Positions 4,385 through 13,930 of a DNA stretch of 24,579 nt are shown here, in pieces. A program made the position numbers and the translations under genes. Numbering within the stretch: position 1 is the first letter of the stretch; every line of letters starts with the position of its first letter. Source of the DNA: a virus; the IMG/VR virus record IMGVR_UViG_3300009149_000262, positions 1 to 24,579 of that record; one strand, given 5' to 3'. The notes below the pieces were generated by a model. The model worked only from the letters and a program-made list of their open reading frames with translations, was not told where the DNA came from and ran no database searches.

Positions 4385-4391
4385 CTAAATA
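4385..4391 (+). promoter_or_regulatory. T4-type late promoter element CTAAATA
   Basis: CTAAATA at 4385-4391 begins just after the terminase stop. The predicted transcription start (6 nt after the last A) is about 4397, 2 nt before the ATG at 4399. No Shine-Dalgarno fits in that leader. Confidence 0.6.
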
Positions 4392-4398
4392 ATACATC

Positions 4399-5691
4399 AT
4401 GGAATATACAGTACGCTCACAGATTTTTGACTTTCTTGTCACGAAAAACCTAGATCCTGAAACATTGGATGCCAAAGGTCAGCCCACACAAGATACCCAG
4501 CAAGCCGACCTTATAAGTTTTGACTACAAAGTCGACAACAGGGACTACGGCACAGTGGTATTGGCCTTCCTTGACGAAAACAAATTAGAAATATACTACG
4601 GAGACAATCTGGGTAGATCCATGGAAAGCCAAGATCGCGGCCAATGGTATGACATGTTGGCACAGCTCAAACAGATAGCTGCTAGAAACCTTGTAAATTT
4701 CAATATCGCTAATCTCAGCAGGCTCAAGTATACCATGAAAAACATGAGCACTATCAAAGAAGGCCTGTTTGAAAGTTTTTATGGTCGCAAACGCACCAGC
4801 TATGCTGATCAGCCAAACGGTGCCAGGATCGTGATCCAGCATGATCGCGATATCGCAGAAGGCCAGCCTAGACATCGTGCCATTGACAAGATCTATATCG
4901 AAACCGCGCAGGGCGAGCGTTTCTTGGTGCCCAGTCGCAGTCTCATGCATGCCAAAATGCTGGGACGACATGTCAGCGAAGGAGGCACGCCCTATGATGC
5001 TTTTGGTCAGCATATCAATCAACTGGTCATTGAAATGAACACTCTGAGCAAGTTTATCCGTGCCACCAATGGTCGCGAATATGAAAACGAGGCTCAATCA
5101 TTGGCCGAAGCTGCCAGGACACATTATCGTAATCTACGATCCAAAGCTCGAGAAATGATAGGTCGTCGGGGATATCGCCTGAATTTTGAGTCTTTTGATC
5201 CCATGCGCACGGACAGTCATGATGTCGATCTAGATCGCATTCGTGAGATGTTTGTTGATCGGCAGGTGGATGAGAGGATCGAGCAGGCTTTGCCGTTGCT
5301 AGAAAAACTGAAATCTACGATCATGCCCGAAGTGTCTGAATTTGACTCTTGGACCAGCCAAGTCATTGAAGGCACGTGGAGCTTGCCTGATTCCAGCCAG
5401 CGATTTGACGAACTCAAATCACTGATGGCAGATCCGTTGCCTGTGGGACCAGATGCTCTAAATGCTACCGAACTGCTGTATGATCTGGTAGGGGACGATG
5501 AACTGTTTGACAGTCTCGAAGATCTGGCCAAAGTAGATCCAGATGCCGATGCTCGTCCATTGATTCTCGATCGGCTTGGAAAATTGGGATACAACATCAA
5601 ATCATTGTCCGACCGCATCCAGGACACAGCCACCGAGGATCTTGATGTGGACGGTGTTATGATGACACGTGCTTCTAACATGAGCAGCTGA
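4399..5691 (+). CDS. Conserved phage protein of unknown function, 430 residues
   Basis: I do not recognise a characterised family, though from memory proteins of this type follow the terminase in other marine T4-like phages. The N-terminal part (about 1-110) is mixed alpha/beta with a GDNLGRSME segment near 68-76. The middle (about 120-230) contains an FYGRKRTSYADQP motif. The C-terminal half is strongly helical and charged (about 235-430), with acidic stretches near the end (ELLYDLVGDDELFDSLEDL). No membrane segment, signal peptide or nucleotide-binding motif is visible. A late promoter element lies immediately upstream, which argues for a virion, assembly or late-regulatory role; that is inference. 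The next gene starts 1 nt after the stop. Confidence 0.8.
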   Translation: MEYTVRSQIFDFLVTKNLDPETLDAKGQPTQDTQQADLISFDYKVDNRDYGTVVLAFLDENKLEIYYGDNLGRSMESQDRGQWYDMLAQLKQIAARNLVNFNIANLSRLKYTMKNMSTIKEGLFESFYGRKRTSYADQPNGARIVIQHDRDIAEGQPRHRAIDKIYIETAQGERFLVPSRSLMHAKMLGRHVSEGGTPYDAFGQHINQLVIEMNTLSKFIRATNGREYENEAQSLAEAARTHYRNLRSKAREMIGRRGYRLNFESFDPMRTDSHDVDLDRIREMFVDRQVDERIEQALPLLEKLKSTIMPEVSEFDSWTSQVIEGTWSLPDSSQRFDELKSLMADPLPVGPDALNATELLYDLVGDDELFDSLEDLAKVDPDADARPLILDRLGKLGYNIKSLSDRIQDTATEDLDVDGVMMTRASNMSS

Positions 5692-6491: not shown

Positions 6492-6520
6492 TTGACAATA
6501 CTAAATATCTCGCGCATACT
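6492..6520 (+). promoter_or_regulatory. sigma70-like promoter with embedded late element, upstream of gene 32
   Basis: TTGACA (6492-6497, perfect -35), a 17-nt spacer and CATACT (6515-6520, four of six -10 matches) form a host-type promoter with +1 at about 6527. Inside the spacer, CTAAATA (6501-6507) is a T4-type late element with predicted +1 at about 6513. The gene would thus have an early or middle start and a late start 14 nt apart. Confidence 0.6.
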
Positions 6521-6561
6521 AACAAGGTATGCGTTAGGCATACACATAGGCTAAAATAGGC
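6513..6561 (+). promoter_or_regulatory. Gene 32 leader: mutually exclusive hairpins and TAGGC repeats
   Basis: GTATGC at 6527-6532 can pair with GCATAC on either side. Upstream pairing is CGCATAC 6513-6519 with GTATGCG 6527-6533 (7 bp, 7-nt loop). Downstream pairing is GTATGC 6527-6532 with GCATAC 6538-6543 (6 bp, 5-nt loop). The two cannot form together. TAGGC occurs at 6535, 6547 and 6557, 12 and 10 nt apart. A ribosome binding site AAAGGA (6566-6571) follows, 8 nt before the ATG. T4 gp32 is known to repress its own translation through a leader pseudoknot; this leader may serve the same purpose (inference). Confidence 0.5.
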
Positions 6562-6579
6562 AACGAAAGGAAACAAATT

Positions 6580-7587
6580 ATGGCATCTTTAGCAGAAATA
6601 CCGGCACGACTCCAAGCCGCAGAGTCAAAAGGTCCCGGTCAGTCACAGGGCGGCGACAACGCGATTTACCCTCACTGGAACATGGACGAAGGACACTCAG
6701 CCACGCTGCGTTTCCTGCCTGACAGTGATACAAAAAACACTTTTTTCTGGGTGGAACGAGCAATGATCCGCTTGCCCTTCGCCGGCATCAAAGGCGAAGC
6801 AGACTCTAAACAAGTGATGATACAAGTACCTTGTGTAGAAATGTGGGGTGATGCATGTCCGATCTTGGCTGAAGTCAGGACTTGGTTCAAAGACAAGAGT
6901 CTAGAAGACATGGGACGCAAATACTGGAAGAAACGCAGCTACATCATGCAAGGTTTTGTGCGCGAGAATCCACTCACCGAAGACAGGTCTCCAGAAAATC
7001 CCATCCGAAGGTTCATCATCGGACCACAGATCTTTACCATCATCAAATCGGCCTTGATGGATCCCGAACTGGAAGAATTACCCACCGATTACGAACGTGG
7101 TCTAGATTTTCGTATCAGTAAATCCAGCAAGGGCGGATATGCGGATTACAACACCAGCAAGTGGGCTAGAAAAGAATCAGGGTTGACCGATGTGGAACAG
7201 GCAGCCATTGAACAGTTCGGTCTGTTCAATCTCAATGATTTTCTACCCAAACGCCCCACAGATGTGGAACTGAGAGTGATCAAAGAGTTGTTTGAAGCTA
7301 GCGTAGATGGACAGGCCTATGACACCGAACGCTGGGGGCAGTACTTCCGGCCGGCTGGTGTGGCAGCACCCAGCGGTGCCGAATCGGACACTCCGGTTGC
7401 CAAACACACAGTGGACGGCCACGGTGATGTGCATGAGGTCAAGACAGCTGCCAAGCCAACAATCAGCTCGTTTGACGAGGACGAGCCAACAGAAGCAGCT
7501 GGACCGGTCACAGCACCCACAGCAGGATCAAACAAAAATGCCCAGGACATCCTGGCCATGATCCGAGCTCGTCAAAACAAACAGTGA
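6580..7587 (+). CDS. 32: Single-stranded DNA-binding protein (T4 gp32-like)
   Basis: Coats single-stranded DNA at replication forks and recombination intermediates and recruits UvsX, UvsY and helicases. The 335-residue protein has a basic N-terminal arm (residues 1-20), the OB-fold core (about 35-215) with the conserved WGDACPI, RKYWKKRSY and NPIRRFIIGPQIF segments, and an acidic tail with SFDEDEPTE before a short basic end (ARQNKQ). The acidic tail is the protein-interaction domain in T4. Only two cysteines are visible in the region matching the T4 zinc site (His-Cys-Cys-Cys), so the zinc may be absent, as I recall for marine relatives. ATG 6580 follows AAAGGA at 8 nt. A UUCG hairpin separates it from uvsX. 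Confidence 0.93.
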   Translation: MASLAEIPARLQAAESKGPGQSQGGDNAIYPHWNMDEGHSATLRFLPDSDTKNTFFWVERAMIRLPFAGIKGEADSKQVMIQVPCVEMWGDACPILAEVRTWFKDKSLEDMGRKYWKKRSYIMQGFVRENPLTEDRSPENPIRRFIIGPQIFTIIKSALMDPELEELPTDYERGLDFRISKSSKGGYADYNTSKWARKESGLTDVEQAAIEQFGLFNLNDFLPKRPTDVELRVIKELFEASVDGQAYDTERWGQYFRPAGVAAPSGAESDTPVAKHTVDGHGDVHEVKTAAKPTISSFDEDEPTEAAGPVTAPTAGSNKNAQDILAMIRARQNKQ

Positions 7588-7591
7588 CAAA

Positions 7592-7620
7592 ACAGGGACT
7601 TCGGTCCCTGTCCTTTATAT
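7592..7620 (+). terminator. UUCG-tetraloop hairpin between gene 32 and uvsX
   Basis: A perfect 8-bp stem (7592-7599 with 7604-7611) is closed by the loop TTCG (7600-7603) in the very stable C(UUCG)G context. The tail CCTTTATAT is only weakly T-rich, so this may be a partial terminator or an RNA-processing/stability barrier that sets the gene 32 to uvsX ratio. T4 uses UUCG hairpins between genes in the same way. Confidence 0.75.
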
Positions 7621-7633
7621 CTAAAGGTACGAC

Positions 7634-8695
7634 ATGGCCAAACCGTTTGATGTTTCAAAATTCCGTAAGGAAATAACCAAATCAATTGATGGACTATCAA
7701 TTGGATTCAATGATCCCACAGACTGGATCTCCACAGGCAACTATGCCCTCAACTATCTCATAAGCGGCGATTTCAATCGAGGTATTCCCCTGGGCAAGGT
7801 CACGGTGTTTGCCGGTGAAAGTGGTGCAGGTAAGAGCTATATCTGTTCCGGTAATGTTGTTCGACATGCTCAGGAACAAGGTATCTTCGTGGTGCTGGTA
7901 GACACAGAGAATGCTCTGGATGAAACTTGGCTGCATGCCCTAGGGGTGGACACCAGCGAAGGCAAACTGTTGAAACTGAGCATGGCCATGGTAGATGATG
8001 TGGCCAAGACTATCTCCACCTTCATGGCCGACTACAAGGCTTTACCAGATGGGGAGCGCCCCAAGGTCTTGTTCGTGATTGATAGTGTGGGCATGTTGCT
8101 CACGCCCACTGATGTAAATCAGTTTGAAGCCGGCGACATGAAAGGTGATCTTGGTCGCAAGGCCAAGAGCCTCACAGCCTTGGTACGCAACTGTGTGAAC
8201 ATGTTTGGTGCCTACGGTGTGGGCATGGTGTGTACCAATCACACATACGCCAGTCAAGACATGTTCGATCCCGATGACAAGATTTCCGGAGGCCAAGGAT
8301 TCATTTATGCATCATCGATAGTGGTGGCCATGAAAAAGCTCAAGCTCAAAGAAGACGAGGACGGCAACAAGATTTCTGATGTCATGGGCATCCGTTCGGC
8401 CTGCAAGGTCATGAAGACTCGCTATGCCAAACCGTTCGAAGGTGTGCAGGTCAAGATACCTTACTCAACCGGTATGAGTCCCTATTCCGGCATGGTGGAC
8501 CTGGCTGAGAAAAAAGGCCTGCTTAAAAAAGATGGTAATCGCCTGGCTTTCACTGCCTCAGATGGCGAGATCATCAAGCAGTTCCGACGGGCCTGGGAAT
8601 CCAACGAGGATGGATGTCTTGATCGTGTCATGGCTGATTTTCAAAATCAGCGCGTAGAAATAAGTACTTCCGGCTCAACCGAACAAGGAGAATAA
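7634..8695 (+). CDS. uvsX: RecA-like recombinase UvsX
   Basis: Strand-exchange ATPase for recombination-dependent replication and repair; it works with gp32 and UvsY. The 353-residue protein has a RecA core: Walker A GESGAGKS at 61-68, a catalytic-carboxylate segment DTENALDE around 97-104, and Walker B LFVIDSVGML around 146-155. After these come a loop L1-like region (QFEAGDMKGDLGRKAK) and a loop L2-like region around GGQGFIYASS. The C-terminal 100 residues carry the usual small helical domain. It is slightly shorter than T4 UvsX. ATG 7634 is preceded by AAAGG (7623-7627). It follows gene 32 after the UUCG hairpin and is 3 nt before the next gene, so it is likely co-expressed with both. Confidence 0.95.
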   Translation: MAKPFDVSKFRKEITKSIDGLSIGFNDPTDWISTGNYALNYLISGDFNRGIPLGKVTVFAGESGAGKSYICSGNVVRHAQEQGIFVVLVDTENALDETWLHALGVDTSEGKLLKLSMAMVDDVAKTISTFMADYKALPDGERPKVLFVIDSVGMLLTPTDVNQFEAGDMKGDLGRKAKSLTALVRNCVNMFGAYGVGMVCTNHTYASQDMFDPDDKISGGQGFIYASSIVVAMKKLKLKEDEDGNKISDVMGIRSACKVMKTRYAKPFEGVQVKIPYSTGMSPYSGMVDLAEKKGLLKKDGNRLAFTASDGEIIKQFRRAWESNEDGCLDRVMADFQNQRVEISTSGSTEQGE

Positions 8696-8973: not shown

Positions 8974-11073
8974 GTGACCCTGCCATGGTGGGACAATCTG
9001 ATCCCACCGTGTGCACCTGGAGTCCTCAAAGGCATAGTCGAGAGCCAAGGATACTCCATGCAACTCTACGACAGCAACATTGATTTGCAGTGGACGATTT
9101 GCAACAATAATCCACAGCTTTACAACAAGTTGGTCAATTATTTCACTGTGCCTAGTCCAAATTTTGAATATCAACCGGAGATTGATAGATTTTATGCACA
9201 TGTGATCGAAAAAATACAACAGCAACAAACAAGATTTTTAGCATTCAGTGTTTTTAGTGTATACACCCACCGGGCTACCTACGATATCTTGAACAAACTA
9301 CGTCCGATAACTCAAACACCCATCGTGTTGGGTGGGCGTGGACTAACGACTCGACCCAATCTTTCTATCACTGATTCGTTGACTCCTATCGAAAAGTTAT
9401 CTAACTTTTCTGATGTGATCAAAAAAAGAGCGTTGGCTGATTATCTGATTCTCGGCGATGGAGAAGATGTGATCATTGATTTATTGGACGGTACCTATTC
9501 AGCCTACAATCTCACACACCATGTGGCACAAAAAACATTCCTGGACTACCCTTTCAGCAATTTTGACGGCCTGCAGCTGGACAAGTATCAAGGTCTGGGC
9601 GGAGTCAAACAATTACCTGTGATCAGCAGCAAAGGGTGTGTGAGATCTTGCGATTTCTGTGATGTAGCTGCTCAGATGAAAAAATTCCAAAGCAAGAGCG
9701 GAAGCAGATTGGCACAAGAAGTGATCCATCTTGCTGATAAATATGATATCTCCGAATTCGCTTTAGCAGATTCCATTGCCAATGGAAACATGAAATCTCT
9801 GACAGAATTCTGCGAAAAATTGGCCGAACACAATGCCACGAGTGAGCCGGCTAAACGAATCACCTGGTCCGGCAATTGGATAGCTCGACCTCCGGGCGCA
9901 ATCAAACCACCGTTCTATGACTTGATGGCACGATCTGGATGTAATTCGGTCACGGTTGGTGCCGAGCATGCCAGCAATCGAGTACTGGCAGCCATGGATA
10001 AAAAAACCGTTGTAGAAGGATTGCAATTTGATCTGGATCAATTTGATCGCACCGGAATCAAGGCAATATTAAATATCATCGTTGGTCATTGGTCAGAAGA
10101 GTTTGATGATTTTGTCAAGCTCTATGATTTCTTATTGGCTCAAGGTCGATACATGGCCAACGGCACCATCAATGCTTTTCACACCTCAGTTTATAATGCA
10201 TTAGACAACACTCCGGCAGTTGATCACGGCAATCTAAATCAGTTGGTCAGAGCCGACGACAATTTCACAATGCTATGGTACACAGAAAAAAATCCTAAAT
10301 CTACAATCAAGATACGCCTAGCAAGATGGCTTATCCTCATGGAGCTGTATGATTTTTTGAATTTTTTCAAAACCGAACATTGGCATATTCTCCAAAATCT
10401 TTTGCATCGTATCAAAGACTCCGGCTCTGCGTGGGAGGAATTTTTTGATCAGTCAGTTGCGGATCCCAGCAAGCATATCACTTGCAAGCAAACACTGGAT
10501 TTCATGCAAACCCATCACATGCATTTGATGGATTCAATGAAAGTGATGTTTCCCAGTACATCATTGAAGCTCACAGTGGATGCTTCGCATTGTCGTGGTG
10601 CACCCTGCTTGTTTATCAAACTCAATGGCAAAGATCTTTATCGATCCAGCATGGATCAAGGATCTAGTACCGTCTTGCTAGATATTCCCAATGATTTTGA
10701 CAGTATTTCTGTGCTTGAAATAGGAATGACCAACAAAGATGCCGGAGATACTGTGGTTGATGACCTTGGAAACATACTACAAGATAAAAAAATATTGATC
10801 ACTGGTCTAGAAATGGACACCGTTGATGTTTTTCAAGATGCCAATTATTTTTATCACCAACTTGAGTATATCGAACACGGATGCCAGCGCACACCAGCGC
10901 CTGGATTTTTTATCAATGATTCATCATTGAAAATCAGCTATCAAGGCACCTTTTGGCAGCATTATTTGTCTTCACAACAGGCCTCAACTTGGCGGATTGA
11001 CGAAGAAAAAAGAAAACAAATGCCCGAGCTTGTGGCTGAACTGAAATCTTTGATCGACAGGCTAAAATACTGA
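8974..11073 (+). CDS. B12-binding-domain radical SAM protein (start uncertain, possible frameshift)
   Basis: A radical SAM enzyme of the cobalamin-binding class, 699 residues from GTG 8974. The N-terminal part (1-170) has a B12/Rossmann-like layout (PPCAPGVLKGIVESQGY, IVLGGRG, LGDGED). The radical SAM cluster motif is C222, C226 and C229 (CVRSCDFC). The C-terminal 250 residues have no recognised domain. The GTG start is doubtful: the frame continues upstream as SDIFF, completing the first strand DIFFVTLP, but without a start codon. ATG 8937, 1 nt after the previous stop, would join this frame if the run of five A at 8955-8959 had one A fewer. Sampled G+C is low (about 35% at 10321-10380), suggesting later acquisition. 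Its stop overlaps the next start (TGATG). Confidence 0.85.
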   Translation: MTLPWWDNLIPPCAPGVLKGIVESQGYSMQLYDSNIDLQWTICNNNPQLYNKLVNYFTVPSPNFEYQPEIDRFYAHVIEKIQQQQTRFLAFSVFSVYTHRATYDILNKLRPITQTPIVLGGRGLTTRPNLSITDSLTPIEKLSNFSDVIKKRALADYLILGDGEDVIIDLLDGTYSAYNLTHHVAQKTFLDYPFSNFDGLQLDKYQGLGGVKQLPVISSKGCVRSCDFCDVAAQMKKFQSKSGSRLAQEVIHLADKYDISEFALADSIANGNMKSLTEFCEKLAEHNATSEPAKRITWSGNWIARPPGAIKPPFYDLMARSGCNSVTVGAEHASNRVLAAMDKKTVVEGLQFDLDQFDRTGIKAILNIIVGHWSEEFDDFVKLYDFLLAQGRYMANGTINAFHTSVYNALDNTPAVDHGNLNQLVRADDNFTMLWYTEKNPKSTIKIRLARWLILMELYDFLNFFKTEHWHILQNLLHRIKDSGSAWEEFFDQSVADPSKHITCKQTLDFMQTHHMHLMDSMKVMFPSTSLKLTVDASHCRGAPCLFIKLNGKDLYRSSMDQGSSTVLLDIPNDFDSISVLEIGMTNKDAGDTVVDDLGNILQDKKILITGLEMDTVDVFQDANYFYHQLEYIEHGCQRTPAPGFFINDSSLKISYQGTFWQHYLSSQQASTWRIDEEKRKQMPELVAELKSLIDRLKY

Positions 11074-12289: not shown

Positions 12290-13075
12290 TTCTAGGTCTG
12301 CCTGCAACCATTCTTTGTGACAAAGTTCGTTGAACCATTGATTCCTGTCAGGTCGCAGCGGCTGCTCAATATTGGCTAGATCAAAATTGGCCACAGCCGC
12401 TGCCCGGCTATCTTTGTGGACAAAAGCCGGAACACCGTTGAGAATTGCTTCAACTCCGGGATTGCTGTTGTGATTGATCACTGCCCAGGTATCGGCAATA
12501 CATGACACAAAATCAAATTCATCGTAGGTACCTGACACATGCTGCGCATGCATGACCTGTGCACCAGGTACATGAGCTATGTTGGGACCTCTGGGATGGG
12601 GTCTCACTATGATGGGTCGATCTGTGTGTTGTCTTAGTTGATCCACTTGCTGACGGCACCAAACCTCAATGGCAGGCATGTTCTGCCATTGCAGACTTTC
12701 ATGGCGTTGTAAGGCAATCACCACGTGCTGTCCTTGATCATTCCAGGGTTTGAGATCTAATCCTATGCGAACAGATCGATCGGTCATTGGCGGCAACGCA
12801 ATATCTTTGCCGTTGACCAGTATCCGCCAAGTCAATGACCGTTTGAGTCCAACTTCTATGGCCATGACCGAACGACCAGTGCGCCGGTAGTGGTGCCATA
12901 TCTGCTGGTTGGCCGACATCCGGCCTGCCCAAAGATGGCTCCAGATAACCGCGATATCTGCTTCTGTGTCATGTACCACCCGGTGACCAGCATGTCGAGC
13001 GCCACGCTCAAAGGCCTGGAACAACGGAGCACTGTTTAGGGCTCCAGATCTCGTGTACAAGCTCAAGGTAGTCAC
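12245..13075 (-). CDS. Capsule/teichoic-type polysaccharide transferase-like protein, paralogue 1
   Basis: One of three related proteins in this island. Visible motifs are YTRSGALNSAPLFQAFERGA at the N-terminus, RPHP (in IIVRPHPRG) in the middle, and INHNSNPGVEAILNGVPAFV followed by PLRPDRNQWF in the last third. The R-x-H-P motif and the NS-x-P...GVP block are like the donor-binding half of KpsC/KpsS and TagF-type GT-B transferases, which use CMP-Kdo or CDP-polyols. The acceptor is unknown. I take GTG 13075 as the start (276 residues), which aligns best with the paralogues; a TTG at 13102 would add nine residues and overlap the divergent gene. Its 3' end overlaps the methyltransferase by 45 nt. 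Confidence 0.75.
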   Translation of the reverse strand: MTTLSLYTRSGALNSAPLFQAFERGARHAGHRVVHDTEADIAVIWSHLWAGRMSANQQIWHHYRRTGRSVMAIEVGLKRSLTWRILVNGKDIALPPMTDRSVRIGLDLKPWNDQGQHVVIALQRHESLQWQNMPAIEVWCRQQVDQLRQHTDRPIIVRPHPRGPNIAHVPGAQVMHAQHVSGTYDEFDFVSCIADTWAVINHNSNPGVEAILNGVPAFVHKDSRAAAVANFDLANIEQPLRPDRNQWFNELCHKEWLQADLESMIGHAIEHAIQPR

Positions 13076-13081
13076 TAAATA
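13075..13081 (+). promoter_or_regulatory. T4-type late promoter element CTAAATA
   Basis: CTAAATA at 13075-13081; predicted +1 about 13087, giving a 4-nt leader before ATG 13091. The element overlaps the GTG start of the divergent gene on the other strand. Confidence 0.6.
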
Positions 13082-13090
13082 TCTTTCGTC

Positions 13091-13930
13091 ATGGATCGTC
13101 AATTTTCAGTAGTTACCACATTCAATGCATCGGGCTACAAACTCTACGGAAGCAAAATGATTGACACATTTTTGGTAAACTGGCCCAAAAATGTGTCGCT
13201 CACGGTGTATGCCGAAGATTGCCCGGTCGTACAAACAGCAAGCAATCTCACCGTGTTGGATTTCAACCAGAGCTTGCCGGCCGCCGTTGCATTCAAACAA
13301 AAATGGCAGCACGATGCTCGAGCTTCAGGTAGACTCGCAACCGGCCCGGCTGACAGCAAAGGCAAACAACCGGGCATAGGATTCAAATGGGATGCTGTGA
13401 GATTTTGTCACAAGGTCTATGCTGTGTGCGATCATGCCAGACACAATCTTGACAAAACTGTGCTATGGATGGATGCTGACATGGTGTGTCATAGCCCCAT
13501 AGATCACCCGACTCTGTGTGAGATGATGCCCAACGATTTCGCTCTAGCATTTTTGGGTCGACAAGGCAAGTACACCGAATGTGGACTGTACGCGCTGGAC
13601 ATGAGAAATCGTATAACTCAGCACTTTATTACACTTTTCCAGAATGCCTACGACGAACCCGAATTCGGAATTTTTGCAATGGAGGAATGGCATGACAGTT
13701 TTGTTTTTGATCAACTACGTAGATTGGTCGCGGCAGCCAATCCAGCGTGGAAACAGCTGGATTGGAGTCGTGGATTGGTCACGGGCGAAGGCCATCCTTT
13801 GATCAACAGTGGATGGGGAGCATACCTTGATCATCTCAAAGGCAAAAGAAAAAACGCAGGAATGAGTCTGGCCAAAGACATCAAGACTGATCGTCCAGAG
13901 GCCTATTGGCGATCTCTTCGCGCATCCTAG
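13091..13930 (+). CDS. Glycosyltransferase-like protein (GT-A, DxD motif)
   Basis: A 279-residue protein with a GT-A type layout: an N-terminal strand (FSVVTTFNASGYKLYG), FKWDAVRFCHKVYAV at about 98-112, then the metal-binding LWMDADMV with D128 and D130. A later EEWHDSFVFD motif and a NSGWGAYLDHLKGKRK region near the C-terminus complete it. The donor sugar and acceptor cannot be inferred. From memory, proteins with this FKW...DAD...EWHDSFVFD order occur in other marine T4-like phages. The gene has its own late promoter element and only a few leader bases, with no Shine-Dalgarno. Its 3' end overlaps the convergent GT25-like gene by 50 nt. Confidence 0.8.
   Translation: MDRQFSVVTTFNASGYKLYGSKMIDTFLVNWPKNVSLTVYAEDCPVVQTASNLTVLDFNQSLPAAVAFKQKWQHDARASGRLATGPADSKGKQPGIGFKWDAVRFCHKVYAVCDHARHNLDKTVLWMDADMVCHSPIDHPTLCEMMPNDFALAFLGRQGKYTECGLYALDMRNRITQHFITLFQNAYDEPEFGIFAMEEWHDSFVFDQLRRLVAAANPAWKQLDWSRGLVTGEGHPLINSGWGAYLDHLKGKRKNAGMSLAKDIKTDRPEAYWRSLRAS

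Follow-up and report, generated by a model that had tools for sequence, protein, structure and literature searches.

Two overlapping predicted promoters and alternative 5' hairpins in the gp32 leader of uncultured T4-like phages

The sequence of a T4-like phage and those of its relatives suggest that its gp32 mRNA has two alternative, overlapping start sites, and that a different hairpin is rooted at each. We analysed a stretch of 24,579 nt (hereafter the window; positions 1 to 24,579 of IMG/VR record IMGVR_UViG_3300009149_000262), which is a fragment of a T4-like phage record, together with the leaders of related gp32 genes. Two features are generally kept across the family, namely a predicted late start at the foot of a hairpin and a set of AGGCA-type repeats. 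The arrangement suggests that the early and late gp32 messages are stabilised or controlled differently. We see about an even chance that this is an autoregulatory leader, in which early and late promoters overlap, the choice of promoter sets the 5' hairpin and the repeats act as the operator.

The protein gp32 is a classic example of autogenous control, in which a DNA-binding protein regulates the mRNA that encodes it, and its control beyond the close relatives of T4 is described in reviews as unstudied (PMC3014915, PMC535899). We found no report on the present gp32 leaders in the open-licence literature that was searched. A large and mostly uncultured branch of the T4-like phages has a conserved leader that covaries, in which AGGCA is a new repeated unit and two predicted promoters stand in a fixed relation to two 5' hairpins. 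Because the UUAAA operator of T4 and the putative AGGCA operator could be compared, the recognition by gp32 of its own mRNA would become directly testable, and the leader itself would be a compact way to link the timing of transcription to mRNA structure.

The locus and its relatives

The features of the locus are collected in Table 1. Sequences nearest to the gp32 protein came from uncultured IMG/VR contigs, with identities of up to 82%, and the nearest isolated relatives, all jumbo phages, did not exceed about 51% identity. No DNA similarity to isolated phages was found, and an Rfam search of the leader gave no match. A strong terminator-like hairpin, ACAGGGACTTCGGTCCCTGT, lies at 7592-7611 between gp32 and uvsX. 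The recombination genes are adjoined by an ORF of 699 aa (8974-11073) that had no match in the PHROG search; it carries a CxxxCxxC motif (CVRSCDFC) like that of a radical-SAM enzyme.

Table 1. Positions of the gp32 leader elements and neighbouring genes in the window
Feature	Position	Strand	Evidence
Sigma70-type promoter TTGACA-N17-CATACT, predicted start 6526-6528	6492..6520	+	Best of 14 sigma70-like matches in the first 12.3 kb of the window; also present in relatives, with constant spacing
T4-late-type promoter octamer ACTAAATA, predicted start 6513	6500..6507	+	A/C/T-TAAATA in 154/156 leaders; Aeh1-type variant; gp55-like sigma in relatives
Hairpin P1, 9 pairs (6512-6520 with 6526-6534)	6512..6534	+	Fold; positional conservation in 87/99 leaders; arm swap p=2e-8; pair counts
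Hairpin P2 (6527-6532 with 6538-6543), at the predicted sigma70 start, excludes P1	6527..6543	+	Fold probability ~1.0; 84% of class A; arm swap p=0.003
AGGCA-type repeat 1 (TAGGCATAC), within P2, free when P1 forms	6535..6539	+	Sequence, fold, repeat counts
AGGC-type repeat 2 (TAGGCTAA)	6547..6551	+	Sequence, repeat counts
AGGCA-type repeat 3 (TAGGCAAC)	6557..6564	+	AGGCAAC enrichment in leaders
Shine-Dalgarno AAAGGA of gp32	6566..6571	+	Sequence
gp32-type single-stranded DNA-binding protein, 335 aa	6580..7587	+	PHROG profiles phrog_1192 (E=5e-64) and, more weakly, phrog_224 (E=1.5e-7); relatives
UvsX-like recombinase, gene after gp32	7634..8695	+	phrog_97 (E=8e-69)

We gathered 167 distinct gp32 leaders, of which 156 remained after removal of the isolated phages and one mis-started entry. 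Statistics were calculated on 99 dereplicated leaders, with the window included as L081. The leaders fell mainly into two phasings. In class A (62 leaders, including the window), the late box is located in the sigma70 spacer, 7-9 nt before the -10 element. In class B (27 leaders), it is located upstream of the -35 element, 26-27 nt before the -10 element. In a small class C the hairpin is a separate one, and only 3 of its 8 leaders had a hairpin foot exactly at the predicted late start. On the gp32 tree, well-supported branches forced at least 4-6 changes of class, a count that recombination between leader and gene could inflate.

Two promoters and the hairpin at the predicted late start

The sigma70-type promoter consists of TTGACA (6492-6497), a spacer of 17 nt and CATACT (6515-6520), with 10 of 12 positions matching, and this places the predicted start at about 6527. 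The octamer of T4 late promoters occupies -13 to -6 (PMC2988020). Because ACTAAATA at 6500-6507 is such a TATAAATA-like octamer and was numbered in the same way, the late start was placed at 6513. Its A/G-C at -13/-12 is a late-promoter variant reported for Aeh1 (PMC2988020). The sequence-only reading had put the two starts on the first bases of GTATGC and of CGCATAC; all of its coordinates were exact, and the T4 numbering of the box agreed with its late start. An A/C/T-TAAATA box lay 5' of gp32 in nearly all of the 156 distinct leaders (Table 1). A gp55-like late sigma factor was encoded in 5 of 9 large contigs of the relatives, the window itself being a fragment, and two of these five proteins were searched against PHROGs, both with E ~5e-74. 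The presence of this factor in relatives supports the use of the predicted late box. The box therefore resembles T4-type gp55 late promoters in its octamer, in the Aeh1-like variant and in the sigma factor of the relatives, but differs from them in that it overlaps a sigma70 promoter and keeps a fixed offset, by class, to the -10 element.

The predicted late start is the foot of P1, the 5' arm of which contains the sigma70 -10 element; in the window, CGCATAC (6513-6519) is complementary to GTATGCG (6527-6533). A hairpin of -5 kcal/mol or lower with its foot at the predicted late start (offset -1 to +1) was found in 87 of the 99 leaders, compared to 13.8% of dinucleotide shuffles, which places the base of a stem a few nucleotides or less from the predicted late 5' end in these leaders. 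This placing was found in both main phasings (57/62 in class A and 25/27 in class B). In class B, the stem is extended outward by TGACRC, which pairs just before the first AGGC and thereby brings the foot to the late start again. A hairpin at every late promoter was considered and rejected, since 44 other TAAATA sites near genes had no hairpin peak at their start; the hairpin thus belongs to gp32 rather than to late promoters generally.

The arms of P1 remained complementary in relatives, as the sequence-only reading would have it, and the compensating changes it proposed to look for were strongly supported. When the arms were swapped among class A leaders, the folding energy changed from -8.0 to -3.8 kcal/mol, a loss of half (p=2e-8, where this and the other covariation p-values assume independence among the leaders, which does not fully hold). 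MAFFT alignment of all hairpins misaligned the 3' arms because the loops vary in length, and the pairs were therefore counted in an equal-length subset. In this subset, 96.8% of cells were paired and 19 cells had changed on both sides, compared to 6.0 in shuffles. The covariation score of 0.48 (0.27 in shuffles) was reached by 0 of 500 shuffles, and versions in which the pairing was slid scored at most 0.18. The stems of class B also beat arm swaps (p=0.002; outer half alone, p=0.049).

The repeats and the second hairpin

The most specific feature of the leader is the series of TAGGC/AGGCA repeats, to which the sequence-only reading gave a passing mention, although its positions (6535, 6547 and 6557, before the ribosome binding site) were exact. 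The density of AGGCAAC was 14.7 per kb in the 130 nt preceding gp32, compared to 0.22 per kb elsewhere on the same strand of the same loci, an enrichment of about 68-fold. Two or more copies of AGGCA were present in 82 of the 99 leaders and in 0.3% of shuffles. It is mainly such counts in relatives, for the repeats as for the hairpins at both starts, that exclude a chance arrangement. The repeats extend to the Shine-Dalgarno sequence, and the distance from the last copy to the start codon of gp32 is usually 10-26 nt. Many of the AGGCAAC copies outside leaders fall in the coding sequence of uvsX, and an apparent second AGGCAAC site downstream was rejected because it proved to be such coding sequence. 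The repeats were absent from isolated jumbo phages with a related gp32 (GAP32, RaK2, PA5oct, PBECO4, Atu_ph07 and others), among which Atu_ph07 alone has a borderline repeat of a different unit. Three leaders (L331, L336 and L064) have one or two extra hairpins with a common loop, TAGTTG, and with GTAGGCA directly after each (GATACG-TAGTTG-CGTATC and GAGTAG-TAGTTG-CTACTC).

The second hairpin, P2, shares its 5' arm with the 3' arm of P1, in that GTATGC at 6527-6532 is also complementary to GCATAC at 6538-6543. In predicted folds of the window leader, P1 had a probability of 0.95-0.99 when the RNA began at 6513, and P2 a probability of ~1.0 when it began at 6527. With the late start moved to 6514, P1 and P2 had probabilities of 0.73 and 0.27 for the leader up to the start codon, and P1 recovered to 0.98 when a stretch of coding sequence was added; the outcome is not very sensitive to the exact start. 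A 5' hairpin at the sigma70 start was found in 84% of class A leaders, which are of the window type, compared to 17% of mononucleotide shuffles. The idea that early and late mRNAs form exclusive hairpins thus holds for the predicted folds of the window, but it fails as a rule for the family. In class B and in a sub-group of class A with T-runs, the hairpin before the AGGCA repeats is separate and does not compete with P1. Because this is true of many relatives, the exclusive switch, as judged from the leader sequences, is confined to the part of the family to which the window belongs.

It is possible, though we hold it only tentatively, that P1 alone matters: it would protect the late gp32 message from decay that depends on the 5' end, and P2 would be a by-product of the resemblance of the 3' arm of P1 to the complement of AGGCAT. 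The complementarity of P2 may indeed be such a by-product in part, because its 3' arm overlaps the AGGCAT motif. P1 is present in every promoter phasing, and its covariation is far stronger than that of P2, for which the compensating changes in relatives were modest (arm swaps, -5.9 compared to -5.0 kcal/mol). Stem-loops at the 5' end are cited as stabilising mRNA in E. coli (Emory 1992; Bouvet and Belasco 1992, cited in PMC3997798), and the mRNA of T4 gene 32 is the most stable T4 message (PMC3014915). The stem-loops of ompA and papA offer a parallel, to go by the references in PMC3997798, in that the predicted late message opens directly with P1; however, P1 would be present on only one of the two predicted messages of the gene, and its stabilising role is putative. 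Against P2 as a mere by-product, its arms beat swapped arms (p=0.003), most clearly in the window, L001, L009, L026, L031, L076 and L078, and in both class A and class B a hairpin has its foot at the sigma70 start. We consider that P2 is real in the window and in its nearest class, as far as these predicted pairings indicate.

Proposed control and its precedents

In the autoregulatory leader that we favour, a sigma70-type early promoter and a gp55-type late promoter would overlap, and transcription from each would begin at the base of its own hairpin. The late message would begin with P1 as a 5'-terminal stem-loop, whereas the early message would start inside P1, which then could not form, and would form P2 instead in the window and its nearest class. 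Both messages would carry the AGGCA repeats up to the ribosome binding site. These repeats take the place that the UUAAA repeats have in T4 gene 32, and probably serve as the unstructured portion of an operator for autogenous control of translation. In the late message, P1 may confer a long life while all three AGGC units stay unpaired; in the early message, the first unit may be tied up in P2. The sequences themselves show the promoter boxes, the phasing of the hairpins, the covariation and the enrichment of the repeats, whereas the start sites used, the binding of gp32 and any difference in stability or repression belong to the proposal. A more doubtful extension is that the choice of promoter is a timing switch, in which P2 hides one unit early and P1 later exposes the full AGGCA operator behind a protected 5' end, so that gp32 output would be retuned at the onset of late transcription.

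We infer an autogenous operator because the layout of the leader is the same as that of T4 gene 32, with another unit and with hairpins. In T4, translation of gp32 is repressed by the protein itself, which binds first to a 5' pseudoknot and afterwards covers the UUAAA repeats cooperatively as far as the ribosome binding site (PMC535899, PMC3014915). The window leader belongs to the same gene and likewise has a folded element near its 5' end, followed on the 3' side by a short repeated unit that reaches the ribosome binding site. This precedent for the layout, together with the unusual stability of the T4 message, argues by analogy for an autoregulatory leader (PMC3014915, PMC535899). However, T4 and RB69 have a pseudoknot with UUAAA/UAAA repeats, where the present leader has hairpins with an AGGCA(AC) unit and a 5' structure that would depend on the promoter used. 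A T4-like pseudoknot was not supported in these leaders, since pairing of the loop with downstream sequence averaged 2.3 bp compared to 2.4 bp in swaps, and the window has one possible pairing of 4 bp. The stable 5' end of the T4 message, at -71, is made by RNase E, whereas here the predicted late start is itself at a hairpin foot.

A leader switch that depends on the promoter had been thought new, and this was only partly so. Such folding is known for the T4 genes e, soc, 49 and I-TevI, in which the long early message is silenced (PMC3014915); it is not known in gene 32, and the polarity here is opposite. The likeness is that the choice of promoter sets the structure of the leader and that the late promoter overlaps one arm; in our case the alternative folds, from 6513 and 6527, are computed predictions. 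In the T4 genes, however, it is the longer early message that folds and is silenced, the late one being open, whereas here the longer late message would carry the 5' hairpin. Moreover, P1 and P2 end by 6543 and do not sequester the Shine-Dalgarno sequence or the start codon.

It is unlikely that P1 is an intrinsic terminator for upstream transcription in which the gp32 promoter is nested, with gp32 transcripts starting past it. A T-run follows P1 in 35 of the 85 class A and B leaders tested. A separate terminator-like hairpin lies upstream in only 3 of these 35, compared to 22 of the 41 class A leaders that lack a T-run, which speaks for this role; against it, none of the 9 class B leaders that lack one has a separate hairpin of this kind upstream. 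The combination of a G+C stem and a T-run is absent from the window, where P1 is followed by TAGGCATAC, and the T-run is absent from most class A leaders, so that termination was rejected as the general role of P1. Where there is a T-run, P1 could terminate transcription, but this is hard to reconcile with a late message, which has to pass P1, because a terminator about 30-45 nt past the late start would silence the late promoter. Termination is at most an added role in some lineages, the window not among them. A terminator-like P1 with a T-run, and with the gp32 promoter inside it, is present at L141, L142, L145 and L148-L172, and at class B loci such as L005 and L029. Finally, a DNA operator for a repressor of the sigma70 promoter is very improbable and was rejected, because although the inverted repeat is centred between -10 and +1, a usual place for an operator, the arms vary widely in sequence with compensation that keeps them complementary, as expected of a self-folding nucleic acid rather than a protein site, and the foot follows the late start when the promoters move apart.

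At some other late-type TAAATA boxes, a long gene begins so soon after the box that the late message, as predicted, would have almost no leader. In the window, these are at 4385-4401 (ATG at 4399, +3), 887-901 (start codon at 899, +1) and 13075-13093 (start codon at 13091, +5). In relatives, the structural gene 5' of gp32 has a late-type box in 30 of 47 cases, and the ATG is at about +3 in 25 of these 30. With its long structured leader, gp32 is an exception to this pattern.
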